Assembly: GCA_017854535.1 (NCBI GenBank)
Contig: JAFMHL010000022.1
Location: 1-64,000, forward strand
Direction of reading: 5' to 3'
DNA from: Nitratireductor sp.
GTDB taxonomy: Bacteria > Pseudomonadota > Alphaproteobacteria > Rhizobiales > Rhizobiaceae
DNA: 64,000 nucleotides
Shown here: one piece after another, positions 6,097-49,016 of the stretch
Numbering within the stretch: position 1 is the stretch's first letter
Layout: each line of letters opens with the position of its first letter
Notes under the pieces: model-generated
The model's input: the letters and a program-made list of their open reading frames with translations, nothing else
What the model was told of the DNA's origin: nothing
The model's database searches: none
Position numbers and translations under genes: made by a program

Positions 6097-6191
6097 TCGA
6101 GCCTCCTACTGCCAAGTCCATATAGTAACTACGGATCAATCATCTGGTTAGTTTCACAAGAGCGTAGGAACCTAGTGTATCTAGTCTTAGT

Positions 6192-7247
6192 TCATTCGCC
6201 TTTGTCGATCATTTCCATTGCTAGGTGACCCAAGATTGGAACCGCAATGCCGTATTGTTTGGCCTTTTCCGGATTAGACGCATTACCATCCAAAGAGCGT
6301 TTGTAAACGCCTTGCAAAATTGCCGCGAGGCGGAAGAAGCAAAACGCCACGTAAAAATGCCAGTTATCAATGCCTGATAGGTTTCTGCGTTTGCAGTAGG
6401 CTGCTACATAATCCTTTTCAGATGGAATGCCCAAAGCGGCTTTGTCTATTCCACCCAAACCACGAAATCCGCCCTGATGGGGCAAGCGCCATTGCATGCA
6501 CTGATATGCAAGATCTGCAAGCGGATGGCCAAGCGTTGATAATTCCCAATCGAGAATACCAATAATTTCATGGGCGTCATGGCTGAAGACCATATTATCG
6601 AGGCGATAATCTCCGTGGACCAAACTGACCTGTCCATCATCGGGAGGCATGTTCTTGCCCAGCCATTCAATCAGTCTTCTAATGTCTTTGTTTGGCTCAA
6701 CTTCGCTCGCATCATATTGCTGGGTCCAGCGGCCAACCTGGCGTTCAAAGTAACTTCCGGGCTTTCCAAAATCCGATAGACCGGCTTCATTCACATCTAC
6801 TTGGTGGAGCTTTGCCAAGGCTTCATTCATTCGATCATAAATTAAATGGCGGCGCTCAGGCGCTGCTTCGCCATGGTTCTCATGAATTTCAGGCAAAGCC
6901 GGATCCCAAAATATGTGACCATCCAAAAATTCCATCACGAAAAACATGCGCCCGATTGGACTGTCTTCATCGCTCAACGCGTGGACCTTTGGAATAGGTA
7001 CTCCGGTTCCAGCCAAAGCTTTCATTACCCGGTATTCGCGGTCTACCTGGTGCGCGGATTTAAGAAGATCACCGGGGGGTTTCGCACGAAGCACATATTT
7101 TCCGCTTTGAGCTGTAATCAGAAAAGTAGGGTTAGACTGGCCGCCCTCGAACTTCTTTATTTCCATCAAATCATGAAAACCGGAAACATGCTGATCGAGC
7201 CAAGGTTCGAGTGCTTCATTATCCAGATTGTTGACAGGTGCGCTCAT
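6192..7247 (-). CDS. APH-family phosphotransferase (ACAD10/11 N-domain / LvaA-like)
   Basis: A 351-residue kinase-like protein of the aminoglycoside phosphotransferase fold. It has the ATP-site segment YVLRAKPPGDLLKSAHQVDRE, the catalytic loop HGDYRLDNMVF and a metal-binding DWELSTLGHPLADLAY. These match the kinase domain of ACAD10/ACAD11 and the stand-alone LvaA kinase that phosphorylates 4-hydroxyacyl-CoA in levulinate catabolism (established knowledge, recalled). An ACAD11-like dehydrogenase is encoded 6 kb away in the TetR locus, which supports a hydroxyacyl-CoA kinase role over antibiotic resistance. I chose the ATG at 7247 (MSAPVNNLDN) over a TTG 19 codons upstream. Confidence 0.85.
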   Translation of the reverse strand: MSAPVNNLDNEALEPWLDQHVSGFHDLMEIKKFEGGQSNPTFLITAQSGKYVLRAKPPGDLLKSAHQVDREYRVMKALAGTGVPIPKVHALSDEDSPIGRMFFVMEFLDGHIFWDPALPEIHENHGEAAPERRHLIYDRMNEALAKLHQVDVNEAGLSDFGKPGSYFERQVGRWTQQYDASEVEPNKDIRRLIEWLGKNMPPDDGQVSLVHGDYRLDNMVFSHDAHEIIGILDWELSTLGHPLADLAYQCMQWRLPHQGGFRGLGGIDKAALGIPSEKDYVAAYCKRRNLSGIDNWHFYVAFCFFRLAAILQGVYKRSLDGNASNPEKAKQYGIAVPILGHLAMEMIDKGE

Positions 7248-8668: not shown

Positions 8669-9871
8669 TCAATAGACTTCGAATAGTCCTGCTGCGCCCA
8701 TTCCGCCACCAACGCACATGGTTACAACCACGTATTTCGCACCGCGTCTTTTACCTTCAATCAGCGCATGACCCGTCATACGAGCGCCTGACATTCCATA
8801 AGGATGGCCAACAGAAATGGCCCCACCGTTGACGTTATATTTCTCAGGATCGATGCCCAGTTTATCGCGGCAATATAGAGCCTGGACAGCGAAAGCTTCA
8901 TTGAGCTCCCAAAGGCCGATATCATCCACCTTCAAACCATTGGCTTTCAAAAGCTTTGGCACAGCGAATACGGGGCCAATGCCCATTTCATCTGGATCAC
9001 AGCCAGCTGCTGCCATACCAACATAACGGCCAAGCGGTTTTATACCGCGCTTTTCTGCTTCTTTTTCTTCCATTAAAACGGAAGCTGAAGCGCCATCAGA
9101 TAGTTGTGAAGCGTTACCAGCGGTGATGAATGCGCCTTCTTTGATTTGCTTGCCACCTTTGAAAACGGGCGAAAGGCTTTGCAGTCCTTCAAGTGTTGTG
9201 GAAGGGCGATTGCCTTCGTCTTTGTCCAAGGTAACTTCAACATCGGAGATTTCTTTTGTTTCTTTGTCCTGCACTTTCATGATGCTTTTCATCGGTACGA
9301 TTTCATCATCAAATTTTCCGGCAGCTTGAGCCGCCGCTGTGCGCATTTGTGACTGTAAACCATATTCGTCTTGAACATCTCTAGAAATGCCATATCGAGC
9401 AGATACAACTTCTGCCGTTTCAAGCATGCTCATATACAAAGCAGGCATATTTTCCATGAGCCACGGATCGACGCTGCGATACATATTCATTTTATCGTTT
9501 TGGGTAAGGGAAATTGATTCAAGTCCGCCGCCAACGGTTACGTTCATTCCATCGCCCGTAATCTGTTTGGCGGCAGTCGCTATTGCCATAAGCCCTGAGG
9601 CACATTGTCGGTCTAATGACATGCCAGCAACTGAAGTCGGCAATCCAGCTCGCATGGCGCATTGGCGAGCCATATTCATATGGGTAGAACCTTGTTGAAT
9701 GGCCGCTCCCATAACCACGTCGTCGATTTCGCCTTTGTCTATGCCGGCTCTTTCAACTGCATGGGCAATTGCATGGCCGCCTAAGGCTTGTGCTTGCGTG
9801 TCGTTGAAAGCACCGCGATAGGCTTTTCCAATCGGGGTTCTTGCTGTGGAAACGATAACTGCTGAACGCAT
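8669..9871 (-). CDS. Acetyl-CoA acetyltransferase / thiolase
   Basis: A 400-residue thiolase. Thiolysis of a 3-ketoacyl-CoA would end a beta-oxidation cycle. The nucleophile Cys90 sits in [13 protein letters not shown]. The second active-site elements are [16 protein letters not shown] (His) and the C-terminal [10 protein letters not shown] (Cys). The start at ATG 9871 ([20 protein letters not shown]) has AAGGAA about 8 bases upstream and is preferred to a frame opening 10 codons earlier. It is the last gene of a four-gene minus-strand operon with two SDR genes and a MaoC-type hydratase. Confidence 0.92.
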
Positions 9872-9925
9872 GGGTTTTTCCTTATGGTTTTGTAAGTTCA
9901 ATCAATATTGAATGATGTTTTGATC

Positions 9926-10828
9926 TTAAGCTTTTTGTGCATTGGTGAGGATTTTGGAAACATGCTCTGTACCTGACAGATAGACACTTGGGTCTGACAT
10001 ATCAGCGATTTTGTCGAACTCTGCAGCGATCGTATCCGCATTGCGATCTTCTTCAGGAATATAAAGGCCTTTGCTCTCGCGCACTTCCATCTTTGAATAG
10101 GTTCCAGCGCCAGCAAACATAACGGTTCTGTTTGGCGCGTCCTTACTCACCAGATAAACGGCAGCAGGTGTTACAAATTTTGGATCGAGCGCAACCAACA
10201 TTTCCTCTGTCATGATGTCTTCGGTCATGCGGGTGGCTGCAGTTGGAGAAACGCAATTGATACGTATGTCGTTTTTTGCGCCTTCGATGCATAGTGTGTT
10301 CATAAGACCTACAACGCCCATTTTTGCAGCGCCATAATTTGCCTGGCCGAAATTGCCGTAAACACCAGAGGTCGATGTAGTCATCAAAATGCGGCCATAG
10401 CCTTGCTCTTTCATTTGGTTCCAAACGGCGAGGGAGCAATTGGCAGAACCGCCTAGATGAACGGCAACAACAGAGTTCCAATCGCTGATTTCCATCTTAC
10501 CGAAGCTCTTGTCGCGCAAAATACCTGCATTGTTGATGAGAATGTCAACACGGCCCCATTTGGCGACAGCATCAGCGATCATCTTTTGGCAGTCTTCATA
10601 GCTCGCAACATTGGCACCGTTGGCCATTGCTTCGCCACCAGCAGCTTCAATTTCTTTCACCACTTCTTCTGCCGGGGATAAAGATCCGCCTGTGCCATCA
10701 CGCGCGCCGCCAAAGTCGTTGACGACGACCTTTGCGCCGCGTTTAGCCAGTTCCATTGCATGGCTTTTGCCAAGGCCGTTTCCTGCGCCTGTTACAATCG
10801 CCACTTGTCCATCAAATCGAATTGTCAT
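9926..10828 (-). CDS. SDR dehydrogenase, multifunctional-enzyme type-2-like (3-hydroxyacyl-CoA dehydrogenase)
   Basis: A 300-residue short-chain dehydrogenase of the kind found as the N-terminal domain of peroxisomal multifunctional enzyme type 2 (HSD17B4). It has the NAD site VTGAGNGLGKSHA, VVNDFGGARDG, the NNAG motif, and the catalytic Ser and YGAAK in STSGVYGNFGQANYGAAK. It probably oxidises 3-hydroxyacyl-CoA to 3-ketoacyl-CoA for the adjacent thiolase. In eukaryotic MFE-2 this domain is fused to a MaoC-type hydratase. Here the hydratase is the next gene upstream in the same operon, which supports the assignment. Confidence 0.85.
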   Translation of the reverse strand: MTIRFDGQVAIVTGAGNGLGKSHAMELAKRGAKVVVNDFGGARDGTGGSLSPAEEVVKEIEAAGGEAMANGANVASYEDCQKMIADAVAKWGRVDILINNAGILRDKSFGKMEISDWNSVVAVHLGGSANCSLAVWNQMKEQGYGRILMTTSTSGVYGNFGQANYGAAKMGVVGLMNTLCIEGAKNDIRINCVSPTAATRMTEDIMTEEMLVALDPKFVTPAAVYLVSKDAPNRTVMFAGAGTYSKMEVRESKGLYIPEEDRNADTIAAEFDKIADMSDPSVYLSGTEHVSKILTNAQKA

Positions 10829-10846
10829 TGGATTTCCTGTTTTGTC

Positions 10847-11311
10847 TTACGAGTTCAAGAGAGTTAGGCCTAACCATTCAGCGATCAAAGCCGGTTTGTC
10901 CGATCCTTCAATCTCGACGCTGACTTCATATTTGGAGAGTATTTCGCCTGGCTTGCGCTCATTACACTCCATTAATTTGAAGTGACCGCGAACGCGTTTT
11001 CCTGAGTTTACGGGCATCAGAAAGCGGATTTTTTCAAAACCATAATTGATCCCCATGCGGGCTTCGCTAACCCGGGGAAGGGCCTCAACTACAAAACCTG
11101 AAAGGAGTGATAGGGTCAAAAAGCCATGGGCAATGGTCCCACCAAAAGGCGTTTCAGCTTTTGCTCTTTCTTCATCCACATGAATGAACTGATGGTCATG
11201 GGTGGCGTCGGCAAATGTATTGATCATTTCCTGGGACACCAAGACCCATTCGGAGGTTCCGGTAGGTTTAACTTTGCCTGAGATTAGATCGGCTGCGCTT
11301 ACAGTTTTCAT
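10847..11311 (-). CDS. MaoC-family enoyl-CoA hydratase
   Basis: A 154-residue hot-dog fold protein of the MaoC/(R)-specific enoyl-CoA hydratase family. It shows the hydratase motif around ADATHDHQFIHVDEERA (Asp and His) and the following PFGGTIAHGFLTLSLLS. It would hydrate a 2-enoyl-CoA to a 3-hydroxyacyl-CoA. It lies 18 bp before the MFE-2-like dehydrogenase and 3 bp after the upstream SDR gene, consistent with one transcript. The stereochemistry and chain length it accepts cannot be read from the sequence. Confidence 0.88.
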   Translation of the reverse strand: MKTVSAADLISGKVKPTGTSEWVLVSQEMINTFADATHDHQFIHVDEERAKAETPFGGTIAHGFLTLSLLSGFVVEALPRVSEARMGINYGFEKIRFLMPVNSGKRVRGHFKLMECNERKPGEILSKYEVSVEIEGSDKPALIAEWLGLTLLNS

Positions 11312-11314
11312 GGT

Positions 11315-12154
11315 TTATACCTTTGATGCTTCATCAAACAGATTTGGACCAGACATAACATGGATGCCGCCATCAAGTGGCAAGATGCACCCAGTTACGT
11401 AAGAGCCACCGTGGCTGCAAAGATAGATTGCAGCCGCAGCAATGTCATCAGGCGTGCCAACGCGCCCAAGTGGAACTGATTTTGCAACGACTTCTCGCTG
11501 ATCAGCCGTGGCTGTCGCATGGGCTGTCATTTTTGATGGAAACGGCCCAGGTGCAAATGCATTAAAGGTGATATGGCGGTGCGCCAGTTCTTTGCCAAGA
11601 ATACGGGTGAGGTGGTGCACGGCCGCTTTGGAAGCCGAATATGAATATGCGCCATCGCCAAGCGCTGCTGTTCCCATGACCGAACCAAGATTGACGACAC
11701 GGGCAGGGCTATCTGGTGAAGCAGCTTTATCCAGCAAGGGAAGCAAGAGTTTTGTTAGGTTGAATAGCCCGGTGACATTAAGATCAAGCACCCGGCTCCA
11801 AGCTGCATAAGGGAAGTCTTCAATTGGCGCGCCCCACGATGTGCCAGCATTATTAAACAAGATATCAAGTTTATCAGTGCGGTCTGAGACTTCTTTTGCC
11901 AGGGCGTTGACACCTTCTTCATTGGCCACATTGCCACCAAATCCGGTTGCTTGTCCTTTTGCGCCAGAAGCTTTGGCTTCTGCATTGATCTCTTCTGCTA
12001 CTTTGACGCAATCTTCCGCCTTGCGAGATGCGATCATCACATTTGCGCCAGCCATAACCAGGCCTGTGGCGATCATTCGGCCAATGCCCGTTGCTCCGCC
12101 CGTTACCAGAGCGGTCTTTCCCTCAAGTGAAAACAGTCTTTCAAAAATTGACAC
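11315..12154 (-). CDS. SDR-family oxidoreductase
   Basis: A 279-residue classical short-chain dehydrogenase and the first gene of the minus-strand operon. Motifs are VTGGATGIGR (cofactor), NNAGTSWGAPIEDF, and the catalytic YSASK with the Ser upstream. The start is GTG at 12154 behind a near-perfect AGGAGG. In a pathway for oxo or hydroxy acids it could act as a ketone reductase (the role of LvaD in levulinate catabolism) or as a hydroxyacyl dehydrogenase. The sequence alone does not decide. Confidence 0.85.
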   Translation of the reverse strand: MSIFERLFSLEGKTALVTGGATGIGRMIATGLVMAGANVMIASRKAEDCVKVAEEINAEAKASGAKGQATGFGGNVANEEGVNALAKEVSDRTDKLDILFNNAGTSWGAPIEDFPYAAWSRVLDLNVTGLFNLTKLLLPLLDKAASPDSPARVVNLGSVMGTAALGDGAYSYSASKAAVHHLTRILGKELAHRHITFNAFAPGPFPSKMTAHATATADQREVVAKSVPLGRVGTPDDIAAAAIYLCSHGGSYVTGCILPLDGGIHVMSGPNLFDEASKV

Positions 12155-12219
12155 GATATCCTCCTAGATGAATGCGCTTGCGAGTTAGGGTCTCTATAAC
12201 CGTTAAATCTAAACGTCGA

Positions 12220-12248
12220 TTGACAACATACCGAGTAGTATGTACCTA
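12220..12248. promoter_or_regulatory. Candidate TetR operator overlapping a promoter
   Basis: An inverted repeat ACATAC (12226-12231) and GTATGT (12238-12243) with a 6-base centre spans 18 bp, a size typical of TetR-family operators. It follows directly on a consensus -35 TTGACA (12220-12225) pointing to the TetR gene and sits between the two divergent operons. Binding here could repress both directions. Confidence 0.55.
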
Positions 12249-12335
12249 TTTTATGTCAGTCGTAAAGCCACTTTCGGTAAGATTTTTCAAAGTGTGGATG
12301 CTTGCGTCTATAATGTCTAGAGGCTGTTTGGAGGA

Positions 12336-13085
12336 ATGGATTTGGGTCAGTCGTTAAAATCAGTGCCTGTAGATCAGAGCTATGATCTGCACACAGATGA
12401 TAAGGCCGACATCCTCGCGAATTCTGCGATGGTTCAACTGGCAGATATTGATCCGGGAAAAGCGTTGATTTTGCAGGCGGCAGCGGACTGTTTCAAGGAA
12501 GCAGGTTTCAATGCCACCAGCATTGATGACGTCGCAGCCCGATTGTCATCTACCAAAGGCCGGATTTATCATCATTACCGCTCGAAAGCTGATTTGTTCT
12601 TTGATGTTCATCGTACAGGTATGAAAATCAATCTGGGCACGCTTGAGCCGGTTGCCAAAGGCAATGCAGCTCCAAAAGACAAGTTTATTCGAATGTGCGA
12701 AGTCCATGTTTATAACATGCTTCATTCAATCAATTTTCAGCGCGTTGTTATGCAGGGCGTGGAAATGCATTTGGCGGGGCGCACAACCCAGCAAGAGCGC
12801 GATAAGTTGGCTTTGTTGATGGAAGAACGAGAAAAATACGAGATGTTCTTTCAGGACGTATTGCTAGAAGGTCGCCGGCAGGGCGTTTTTTCCTTCGACA
12901 ATCCATCCTTTGCCTCAAAGGCTGTTTTGGCGATTTTGAATAATCCGGTTATCTGGTATCAAAAACGCGATGATGAAAACGAGACCAGCCGAAAAACTAT
13001 CATTGACCAGTTCGCACGATTTGCACTCAAATGTGTCTCTGGCAATTCCGTTAAACCTACCTCTTCAGGAGTAAAAGATGTCTGA
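12336..13085 (+). CDS. TetR-family transcriptional regulator
   Basis: A 249-residue regulator. The helix-turn-helix lies near residues 45-92: ILQAAADCFKEAGFNATSID, then DVAARLSSTKGRIYHHYRSK, a textbook TetR domain. The C-terminal ligand domain is longer than average and has no recognised signature. It stands between and probably controls two divergent acyl-CoA operons, so the ligand is likely an acyl-CoA or related metabolite (inference). Its end overlaps the ACAD start by 8 bp. The ATG at 12336 has GGAGG unusually close, so a start slightly downstream is possible. Confidence 0.9.
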   Translation: MDLGQSLKSVPVDQSYDLHTDDKADILANSAMVQLADIDPGKALILQAAADCFKEAGFNATSIDDVAARLSSTKGRIYHHYRSKADLFFDVHRTGMKINLGTLEPVAKGNAAPKDKFIRMCEVHVYNMLHSINFQRVVMQGVEMHLAGRTTQQERDKLALLMEEREKYEMFFQDVLLEGRRQGVFSFDNPSFASKAVLAILNNPVIWYQKRDDENETSRKTIIDQFARFALKCVSGNSVKPTSSGVKDV

Positions 13086-16383: not shown

Positions 16384-17547
16384 ATGACCCCTGAACAACG
16401 CATCGAGCATTATCCTGCGATCGAGGATTTGCGGCAGATTGCCAAACGACGCATGCCGCATTTTGCCTGGGAATATCTTGATAGCGGGACAGGGCTTGAG
16501 AAAGCTGTTCAACGAAATCGTGATGCGCTTGATAAGGTGATGATCACACCGAAAGGGCTAAAAGGTTTTGACAAGATCAAACTGAATACAAGTTTGTTTG
16601 GTAACGAATATGATTTGCCTTTTGGTATTTCGCCAGTCGGCATGACAGGGTTAATGTGGCCAGGTGCTGAGTTGATGCTGGCAGAAACCGCGCGAAAAAA
16701 GAACATTCCTTATTGTCTAAGTACGGTTGGATGCGAAACGCCGGAAAGCGTTGGCAAGATTGCCCAGAAAAATGCATGGTTTCAGCTTTATACATTTGCC
16801 GATTGGAAGATCAACGAGGACCTTTTAAAGCGCGCAGCTGATTCAGGTTTCTCCACGTTGGTGATCACTGTAGATGTTCCAATTCCTAGTATGCGCGAAC
16901 GACAAAGACGGGCCGGGTTGCGAGTGCCGCCGAAGATCACGCCGCAGTTTCTAATGGAAGTTGCCAAACGTCCTGCTTGGGCGCTGGCAACGCTGAAACA
17001 TGGAAAACCTGCATTCCGTATGTTGCAAAAATATGCCAGCTCCGAAGATATGCGCGAACTGACCAAGTTTATTGCATCGCAAAGAATTGGCGGCGCCTAT
17101 ATGTGGAAAGATCTCATTCGTTTTCGTGAGATTTGGAAAGGTCCAATTGTGATCAAAGGCTTGCTGGATGTTGCTGATGCAAAGCAAGCCATTGAACATG
17201 GCATGGATGCCATAGTTGTTTCCAATCATGGCGGACGTCAGTTTGACGGTGCTCCTGCTTCTATATCCGTTTTGCCGGAGATAGCTGATGCGGTGAACGG
17301 CAAAGTGAAAATATTGTTTGATAGTGGTGTTCGCACTGGTCTGGATGTTCTGAGGGCGTTGGCGCTTGGGGCTGATTATGTTTTTGCCGGAAGACCGTTT
17401 TTATATGGTGCCGCTGCCATGGGGCAGGTGGGCGGTGATCATGTTGTTGATATTTTGAAAGCGGATCTTGAGAATAATATGATCCAGCTTGGCGTTAACG
17501 ATATCGCTGATTTAAGAAATTTGAAAATCCTCGACTTCGATCAATAG
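16384..17547 (+). CDS. FMN-dependent alpha-hydroxy acid oxidase/dehydrogenase
   Basis: A 387-residue protein of the L-lactate dehydrogenase (LldD)/glycolate oxidase family, which oxidises L-2-hydroxy acids to 2-oxo acids using FMN. The substrate and FMN motifs are visible: GISPVGMTGLMWPGAE, YCLSTVGCETPESV, VIKGLLDVADA and VVSNHGGRQFDGAPAS with the catalytic His and Arg, then DSGVRTGLDVLRALALGA. It is the last gene of the TetR-led operon. That suggests it handles a hydroxy acid made in the same pathway rather than lactate itself, though lactate remains possible. Confidence 0.88.
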   Translation: MTPEQRIEHYPAIEDLRQIAKRRMPHFAWEYLDSGTGLEKAVQRNRDALDKVMITPKGLKGFDKIKLNTSLFGNEYDLPFGISPVGMTGLMWPGAELMLAETARKKNIPYCLSTVGCETPESVGKIAQKNAWFQLYTFADWKINEDLLKRAADSGFSTLVITVDVPIPSMRERQRRAGLRVPPKITPQFLMEVAKRPAWALATLKHGKPAFRMLQKYASSEDMRELTKFIASQRIGGAYMWKDLIRFREIWKGPIVIKGLLDVADAKQAIEHGMDAIVVSNHGGRQFDGAPASISVLPEIADAVNGKVKILFDSGVRTGLDVLRALALGADYVFAGRPFLYGAAAMGQVGGDHVVDILKADLENNMIQLGVNDIADLRNLKILDFDQ

Positions 17548-39281: not shown

Positions 39282-39566
39282 ATGCTCCAGCGTCTCGACA
39301 TCAGAACTGTTCGTTATGACCGATTTTCGGACGAGGTTTTGATGGATGGCAGGAAGATTGTTGTTGCTGTCACGAAAGACGCGCTGGAAGCTTTATACAA
39401 TCGGGCGCTTGCTCCCGATGAAGCCATTTTAAGGGCTGTGGACGAGGCGAAACGCCTTACGCGGCTTGCAGAGATTATCCCGGCCGATGATGGGCGGGTG
39501 CTGATAACCAAAGAACGGCTTTTGAACGATGGTCAATTTGGCCTTGCTGAAGAAAGCCGGAGTTAA
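39282..39566 (+). CDS. DUF5076-family small protein
   Basis: A 94-residue soluble protein with segments VLMDGRKIVVAVTKDALEAL and RVLITKERLLNDGQFGLAEE. I recognise it as DUF5076, a family that sits between pdhB and pdhC in many Rhizobiales (recalled). Its fixed position inside the pyruvate dehydrogenase operon suggests an accessory role in the complex, but no function is known to me. Confidence 0.75.
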   Translation: MLQRLDIRTVRYDRFSDEVLMDGRKIVVAVTKDALEALYNRALAPDEAILRAVDEAKRLTRLAEIIPADDGRVLITKERLLNDGQFGLAEESRS

Positions 39567-39691
39567 GAGCCTTTCCCCATTTGACGGGATCGTTGGATGG
39601 ACAAGGAAATGCGACAAAATCTGCGTTAGAGCGTTCAAATTGCTCTGCGGAAAACTGATACGCACTAACGGGAACATGGGAGTTCTTAAAC

Positions 39692-46692: not shown

Positions 46693-48963
46693 ATGTCAGA
46701 GTTTGGAACTACCGCTACAAAACCACATTTTTTAGGAATATTTGGTTCGGTATTGGTACCAGTATTCACCGTTACTCTTTTTCTTAGTGCGTTTCTGCTA
46801 TTTTCAGTTCAGCCCTATTTTACAAAGATTGTATTGCCAAAACTAGGTGGTTCACCGGGGGGTTGGTCTGTTGCCATGGTGTTTTTCCAGACCATATTAT
46901 TGCTCGGTTACGGGTATGCACATATTCTAATTCGATATTTTAGCTCCCGCAATTCTTCACTGATACATCTTGGCGTGATGTTGATTGCATTTGTTGCGTT
47001 GCCGATCGCAATTCCTGAAAATTGGATTGATGTACCTAACAGTGGTCAAGTGCCCTGGCTTATTGGTTTATTTACGGTAGCGGTTGGATTGCCATTTTTT
47101 GCTGTTTCGGCCAACGGACCTTTGCTGCAAGCATAGTTTTCAAGAACTGAGCATCCTTATGCGAAAGATCCGTATTTCTTATATGCGGCGAGCAATATTG
47201 GTAGCTTTGCACCTTTGTTCTTATACATCTTGTTTTTTGAGCCTTTGTTCTCGGTAAAAAGCCAATCGATGATGTGGAGCAGCGGATTTGTTGTTTTGGC
47301 GATTGGAATCGCAATTTGCTCTTTGCTGATGATGCGCTCGCGGGAAGCTTATGAAAGCAATTGTGATGCGAACGAATTTTTAGGGACCAAACCTAGCACA
47401 GCGGATCGGCTGACCTAGATCGGTTTAGCGGCAATTCCTTCTGCATTGTTGGTTGCGGTCACTTCATTCGTATCTACGGATGTTGCTTCAGCTCCATTTC
47501 TTTGGGTAATTCCTTTAGCCCTTTTCTTAGCCACATTCATTATTGTTTTTGCTAAGCGCCAAGTCATTGCGCCTAAAACATTGGAAAAATTTCTGGTACC
47601 GGCTGTATTGGTAGGACTGGTTTCTTGCATTCCGCAACTTCAAATTCCCGGCTGGTTGAATATTGCTTTTCACTATTCGTTGTTTTTCTTGGTGGCGCTG
47701 GTTGCACATGGGGCAATGGCAGCTAAAAGACCTGCCGCAATCCATCTGACAGAATTCTATTTGCTGATGTCCGTTGGTGGATTAGTAGGGGGCGTATTCA
47801 CAAGCCTTATTGCTCCTGTGTTATTTGTCAAAATTGCAGAATACTCCTTACTCTTGGTTGTATCGTTATTCGCAAGTAGGGAAATTTCCAGAATTGGTTT
47901 GAAATCATCTGCAATGGTGGTCGCATTAGCTTTTTCGGTGATTTTTGTTCTTGATGGTAGTTGGCAAGAATATATTCCAAACTCGAAAGTGATATTGGTT
48001 CTTCTGATCAGCATCATTCTGATTGGCTTGATGTTTATATTGCTTGTTAAATATCGTGCTTTTCAGCAGAGCGGCTTGATGCTCGCGCTTACATTTTTCT
48101 TGTTTCTAAACTTCCAGATTGATCAACCCGTTTTCAAAGAACGCAGCTTTTTTGGTGTCACAACTGTTTTGGGCTCAAAAGCGTCAGGCCTTCGCACGTT
48201 ACAACACGGCACTACAGTTCATGGCGCTGTTAAACTAGGCAACAATGAAGGTGAGCTTGGTAGCAGCCGTCCTGAGCCATTGACCTATTACCACTATAAC
48301 AGCGGTATGGCCCGTTCCATTAGTGCAATGCGTGCAAGACGAAATGGAACAATCGAAAATGTGGGAGTGGTTGGCCTTGGGTCTGGAAGCTTGGCTTGTT
48401 ACAAGCAAGCAGCTGAAACTTGGGATTTTTATGAGATAGATCAACTCATGATTGATCTTGCTTCACGCAAAGATATCTTTGGTTTCGTTCCAAATTGCGC
48501 GCTGGATTCGCGAATGATCGTTGGGGATGCACGACTGACACTAGGACGGGAAGCCGACAAGAAATACGATCTGCTGATCATTGATGCGTTTTCATCAGAC
48601 TCAATTCCAGTTCACCTTTTGACGGTAGAGGCAATGCAGCTTTATCGCAGTAAAATGAAGAGTGACGGTCTGCTTGTTATGCATATATCAAATAGGCACA
48701 TGGATTTGGCGCCAGTGCTTGCTGCAAATTCCAAGGAATTGGGCCTGCAAGCTCGTGTGGGCTCTGTCACTGGCGACGATTTTCCAAAGGAAACTATGAA
48801 ATTGAAAAGTACGGTGGCGTTTATTACGAAAAACGATGAGGAACTTGGAGATTTGGCAAATGATCCAAACTTGGAATTGATAAAGCCAGATCAGGTTGCC
48901 CCGTGGACAGATGATTATTCGAACATTCTTTCTGCCATGATGATGGGCGGGAAAGAGCATTAA
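46693..48963 (+). pseudogene. Fused MFS-transporter/spermidine-synthase-like gene with two in-frame TAG codons
   Basis: One frame of 756 codons from ATG 46693 to TAA 48963, interrupted only by TAG at 47134 (codon 148) and TAG at 47416 (codon 242). There are no indels. The N-terminal part has many membrane segments (FLSAFLLFSVQPYFTKIVLP). The C-terminal part is spermidine-synthase-like (VGVVGLGSGSLACYKQAAET, LLIIDAFSSDSIPVHLL). At both TAG sites family members have Trp (GPLLQA-W-FSRT and ADRLT-W-IGL, recalled), so each fits a TGG-to-TAG change. TAG is used as a normal stop elsewhere here (pyrG, pdhB), so genome-wide recoding is unlikely. Probably a young pseudogene; suppression or sequencing error remain possible. 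Confidence 0.85.
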
Positions 48964-48978
48964 GTTAGAATTCAATAA

Positions 48979-49016
48979 AAAGACCCCGGAACGGGGAGGA
49001 ACGTTCCGGGGTTTTG
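48979..49016. terminator. Strong bidirectional terminator
   Basis: A perfect 11-bp stem (ACCCCGGAACG at 48983-48993 with CGTTCCGGGGT at 49002-49012) and an 8-base loop. T-rich sequence follows on the plus strand, and AATAAAAAG precedes it, giving a U-run on the minus strand. It can serve the fused gene and the converging small ORF. Confidence 0.88.

Follow-up and report, generated by a model that had tools for sequence, protein, structure and literature searches.

Proteins of the NCBIfam family NF037959 (MFS_SpdSyn, fused MFS/spermidine synthase) are single unbroken chains, and a literature search under the family's name as a single phrase found no paper. Two described phenomena bear on a gene of this kind that carries stop codons in frame. 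Recent, strain-specific nonsense pseudogenes have been reported from Salmonella Paratyphi A, where nonsense changes made up 6 of the 22 gene-inactivating mutations between two genomes and, in the available text, the affected genes include ones for transport and metabolism (PMC2658671). Stop-to-Trp recoding through tRNA-Trp is known for UGA, which the accessible part of the source ties to a tRNA-Trp with a 4-bp stem (PMC13092985).

Here we describe a gene in a 64,000-nucleotide stretch of a Nitratireductor sp. draft genome (the window) that shares features with all three. It resembles NF037959 in an above-cut-off match in its synthase-like half and in having plasmid homologues that bear the family's name, and differs in holding two in-frame TAG codons, whereas no stop was found in the homologues examined. 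As in the Paratyphi A cases covered by the available text of PMC2658671, an otherwise intact frame is broken by point nonsense; unlike them, this gene, seen in a single strain, has two stops, both of them TAG at conserved Trp. Stops at Trp positions are also the mark of the UGA recoding. In contrast to that system, as far as the accessible part of PMC13092985 describes it, the codon here is UAG, RF1 is present, the tRNA-Trp(CCA) of congeners has a 5-bp stem, and other genes of the genome are broken by all three stops. We consider the gene to be most likely a recent pseudogene that arose by ordinary inactivation through two nonsense substitutions.

Results

A fused MFS/spermidine-synthase-like gene with two in-frame TAG codons

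The frame consists of 756 codons and a terminal TAA and is open apart from two internal TAG codons. Homologues align with it end to end and the same protein resumes after each TAG, with no frameshift anywhere in the gene. The initial annotation had described a frame intact save for these two codons, and exactly two internal stops were indeed found. The features of the locus are:

46693 to 48963, forward strand: fused MFS/spermidine-synthase-like gene with two in-frame TAG, a probable recent pseudogene (frame; NF037959; full-length homologues)
47134 to 47136, forward strand: first internal TAG, codon 148, at a position that is Trp in the homologues
47416 to 47418, forward strand: second internal TAG, codon 242, at a position that is Trp in nearly all homologues and Tyr in two
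47446 to 48963, forward strand: longest open frame left, 505 codons from a TTG, holding the aminopropyltransferase-like half (ORF list; profile match)
48983 to 49012, no strand assigned: GC-rich hairpin of 11 pairs, flanked on either side by T runs, 3′ of the gene (terminator scan and sequence)

Upstream of the interrupted gene lie a radical-SAM gene and a gene of the polyketide-cyclase family, and the same stretch also carries a pyridine-nucleotide-disulphide oxidoreductase gene. The hairpin is likely a terminator behind the gene; terminator-like sites in the region number 5 against 3.3 expected from shuffles, and the call rests on the strength of the hairpin's own stem. The product of the 505-codon frame is probably not made, because no clear ribosome-binding site precedes the TTG at 47446 (start region judged by eye).

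With TAG read as W, the protein matched NF037959 at 44.6 bits against a curated cut-off of 40, over residues 573–676 only, which lie in the synthase-like half. No Pfam family matched the interrupted protein at E 0.001. The membrane half and the synthase half are collinear with homologues over the full length, and the unbroken chain of the family is here cut by the two TAG codons.

Among the 393 other family genomes searched, 9 carried full-length homologues (E up to 1e-100), and the best identity across two overlapping family draws (199 and 394 genomes) was 51%. Further homologue loci occur in Hyphomicrobiales and other alphaproteobacteria, with 40–45% identity among the best 80 of 581 relatives. 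A first scan of genome contigs for closer relatives found none. In the six other genomes of the genus searched, two of them only 77% complete, no full-length copy was found, and two of the six gave weak partial matches. Plasmid homologues amounted to 10 records, all below 60% identity and several annotated as fused MFS/spermidine synthase; in tblastn, plasmids of Microvirga, Sphingomonas, Pseudoalteromonas, Legionella and Leptolyngbya carrying the annotation MFS/spermidine synthase matched most of the protein. The spread of the gene across the family is patchy.

Both stops fall at conserved tryptophans

The interrupted protein, its stops written as X, was aligned with 89 full-length homologues. 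The position of codon 148 is Trp in 89/89 and that of codon 242 is Trp in 87/89 and Tyr in the remaining 2; a smaller set gave 85/85 and 83/85. The placement of both stops at family tryptophans, as originally proposed, is thereby firmer than first stated. The tblastn alignments of the 85 homologues contained no in-frame stops, and as the sequences in the 85- and 89-homologue alignments are stop-free segments, those alignments are no test of stop absence. In the search of 394 family genomes, its own included, the interrupted gene was returned with two TAG and the 9 other full-length matches with no stops.

If two nonsense changes struck this gene at random, the probability that both convert Trp to TAG would range from 0.0016 to 0.022 with the mutation bias assumed, in simple mutation models applied post hoc to a gene picked for this very property. 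Because the probability was obtained in that way, we regard the pairing of TAG with Trp as a mild oddity only.

The remainder of the protein is largely conserved

With the stops excluded, the interrupted protein violates 2 of the 116 alignment columns conserved at 98% or more. This equals the count for two intact homologues (L041 and L043) but lies above the mean of 0.78 for the 85 homologues, a value pulled down by the close kinship among many of them. At 99% conservation 2 of 94 columns are violated (homologue mean 0.26), and at 95% 6 of 162 (homologue mean 2.39). The homologue that deviates most, L044, shows 6, 9 and 18 violations. The terminal branch leading to the interrupted protein measures 0.87, roughly double the value for L040, its nearest homologue (about 0.44). 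Excess violations together with a long branch could mean a relaxation of constraint older than the stops, or a faster-evolving lineage. Since nearly all fixed positions are kept, the pattern points either to a recent loss or to a gene that still works.

TAG is a terminator in this genome

RF1 (prfA) is present in the genome and contains no stops. In 844 kb we examined 497 stop-to-stop frames with 250 or more codons; the closing codon was TAA in 224 of them, TGA in 162 and TAG in 111. The median distance to the next in-frame stop is 18 codons after TAG, 13 after TAA and 15 after TGA (495 frames; those without a following segment drop out). These data confirm TAG as a genuine terminator, in line with the initial annotation, which had argued against global reassignment. 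Neither loss of RF1 nor avoidance of terminal TAG, either of which would mark amber recoding, was found.

A suppressor tRNA was sought in two ways. The Rfam tRNA model gave 35 matches in the genome (150 of 191 candidates scored), and none of the 33 that ARAGORN classified has a CUA anticodon; the two weakest were not recognised by ARAGORN. A CUA-loop pattern matched 44 loci against 99 for the reversed control, and no tRNA was seen at the 20 of these 44 loci examined. Among these classified tRNAs and examined loci, the amber suppressor tRNA suggested at the outset was not found. A tRNA-SeC with anticodon TCA called by ARAGORN at 39505 to 39586 on the reverse strand is probably false, there being no Rfam match in the window and no tRNA reported on contig C48 by the tRNA covariance model (150 of 191 candidates scored).

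The draft assembly yielded no tRNA-Trp. All three congeners examined have one, with a CCA anticodon and, as judged by eye, an anticodon stem of the full 5 bp. In one of them (G001) it lies just behind tuf. Contig C7 of the draft breaks off within the opening codons of tuf (L157, 1501 to 1555), which explains the missing tRNA-Trp, and the rest of tuf gave no further match in the assembly. SecE was likewise not found in the draft, although the same search succeeds in 12 of 14 control genomes, and its absence fits the same assembly gap if secE follows there, as it does in many bacteria; in G001 secE was not observed beside tRNA-Trp. We therefore dropped the missing tRNA-Trp as a sign of a code change, as the gap behind tuf accounts for it.

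Stops of all three kinds interrupt other genes

We searched for coding signal running through in-frame stops in 39 stretches of 20 kb plus the window, 844 kb in all or 24% of the 3.53 Mb genome. A strict first scan missed both known stops and a second caught one of the two; a third flagged 80 stops, 56 of them classed as gene junctions. Interrupted genes were picked by eye from the listed rows, partly by family resemblance, which yields a lower bound and no census. In these 844 kb, at least four further genes would be complete were it not for in-frame stops, and one more region appears decayed:

L193 (contig C24), 6249 to 7799: AgcS symporter with one in-frame TAG at 6357, otherwise intact
L194 (contig C26), reverse strand: TsuA/YeeE-like permease with one TAG at 17533, otherwise intact
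L194 (contig C26), reverse strand: SDR oxidoreductase with TAA at 6104 and 5915 and no frameshift
L171 (contig C34), reverse strand: DSBA-like isomerase with one TGA at 1597
L160 (contig C106), about 9300 to 12400: region that looks decayed, with several stops of mixed type from about 9481

The relatives of the AgcS symporter in four congeners (80–86% identity) are open and have Glu (one) or Gln (three) at the TAG position. In the permease, whose TsuA/YeeE-like assignment lies below the cut-offs of the matched models, the TAG falls at a position unconserved in 6 homologues. The two TAA of the SDR oxidoreductase stand where 3/3 homologues compared have Gln and Glu; its homologues reach 77% identity on plasmids of Sinorhizobium/Ensifer. 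The oxidoreductase resembles the MFS/spermidine-synthase-like gene in having two stops and no frameshift, but neither TAG nor Trp is involved. For the DSBA-like gene, a homologue is annotated as 2-hydroxychromene-2-carboxylate isomerase, and three homologues have Arg, Gln and Arg at the TGA position. Pfam matched no family in the L160 region.

Together the four genes hold five stops, which all lie at positions other than Trp and include TAG, TAA and TGA. The interruptions are therefore not specific to amber codons or to tryptophan, and in the 24% sample the pattern expected of recoding, with TAG alone at a single type of residue genome-wide, was absent. The pattern of stops across the genome is that of ordinary gene loss rather than amber tolerance, and the broken genes were presumably dispensable. 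No stop was seen in the ABC-ATPase domain among the matches listed (87 reported for this genome), which speaks against widespread damage.

Discussion

The MFS/spermidine-synthase-like gene combines inactivating mutations in frame with an intact homologous gene elsewhere, as a pseudogene does. We propose that this membrane protein, with its half of membrane helices and its spermidine-synthase-like half, lost selective value in the lineage, and that two nonsense substitutions followed, each consistent with a single G-to-A transition at a Trp codon. Translation would stop at codon 148, and the product, comprising no more than the beginning of the membrane half, would not work. Loss of function, dispensability and this order of mutations are what the sequence suggests. 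The loss looks recent, because no more than 2 of 116 near-invariant positions are broken and the frame is nowhere shifted. A recent event, one of the two readings offered in the initial annotation, is thereby supported.

Some observations sit less easily with inactivation. If the nonsense share seen in Paratyphi A, as given in the available text (6 of 22; PMC2658671), applied here, two nonsense events in a row without an indel would be expected in about 7% of cases, which is mildly unusual and counts against a pseudogene. That both stops are TAG at conserved Trp also counts mildly against it, as does the constraint, which looks nearly intact.

The little further decay in the protein would equally be expected if the real gene were intact and one or both TAG calls were errors of consensus or assembly. 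The draft comprises 116 contigs, searches of it recovered neither the body of tuf nor tRNA-Trp nor SecE, and in several other genes, too, stops are all that separates the sequence from an open frame. Against this, the listed ABC-ATPase matches hold no stop, estimated completeness is 99.16% with contamination 0, and two independent errors no more than 285 bases apart would be needed in a single gene; we regard such an error as unlikely. A working split gene is more doubtful still. The restart fragments might assemble or act separately, for instance as an aminopropyltransferase-like half made from 47446, where the frame stays open for 505 codons past the second stop and holds the spermidine-synthase-like stretch, but the start region before it is unconvincing by eye, the protein is a single continuous chain in the homologues examined, and the first break falls within the membrane half. 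We consider this highly improbable.

The identity of both stops and their place at conserved Trp, the largely conserved remainder of the protein, and a tRNA-Trp, the most relevant tRNA locus, that falls in the assembly gap beyond the end of contig C7 would also be compatible with a gene that still works, its UAG codons being translated, at least partly, into Trp or some other residue through RNA editing, near-cognate reading or a suppressor tRNA. Readthrough-prone stops are typically followed by C, and the bases that follow the two internal TAG codons are T and A. Classified tRNAs and examined CUA-loop loci yielded no CUA tRNA, RF1 is present, the tRNA-Trp of three congeners is an ordinary one with CCA and a 5-bp anticodon stem, and other interrupted genes carry TAA or TGA, or TAG at positions other than Trp. 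The 4-bp-stem tRNA-Trp is tied to UGA in the accessible part of PMC13092985. Decoding of UAG is accordingly very unlikely in our view. Its more specific form, in which the gene is alive because a mutated tRNA-Trp hidden behind tuf, or an effect of context, lets UAG be read partly as Trp, and the ambers are tolerated or even act as a switch that keeps a membrane enzyme low, is a shade less probable again. The suggestion that the codons are tolerated through readthrough, a suppressor tRNA or editing thus gained no positive support, and neither for UAG decoding nor for a working split gene is there positive evidence beyond the coincidence itself.

Recent inactivation by two nonsense substitutions therefore remains the preferred reading. 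Were the ambers nevertheless read as Trp, this would be a surprising find, a natural case of partial UAG-to-Trp decoding in a bacterium that still has its RF1. As it stands, the gene is one more freshly broken gene and matters little in itself. It serves as an example of how two stops at conserved tryptophans can mimic recoding while the genome around them shows stops of all kinds.
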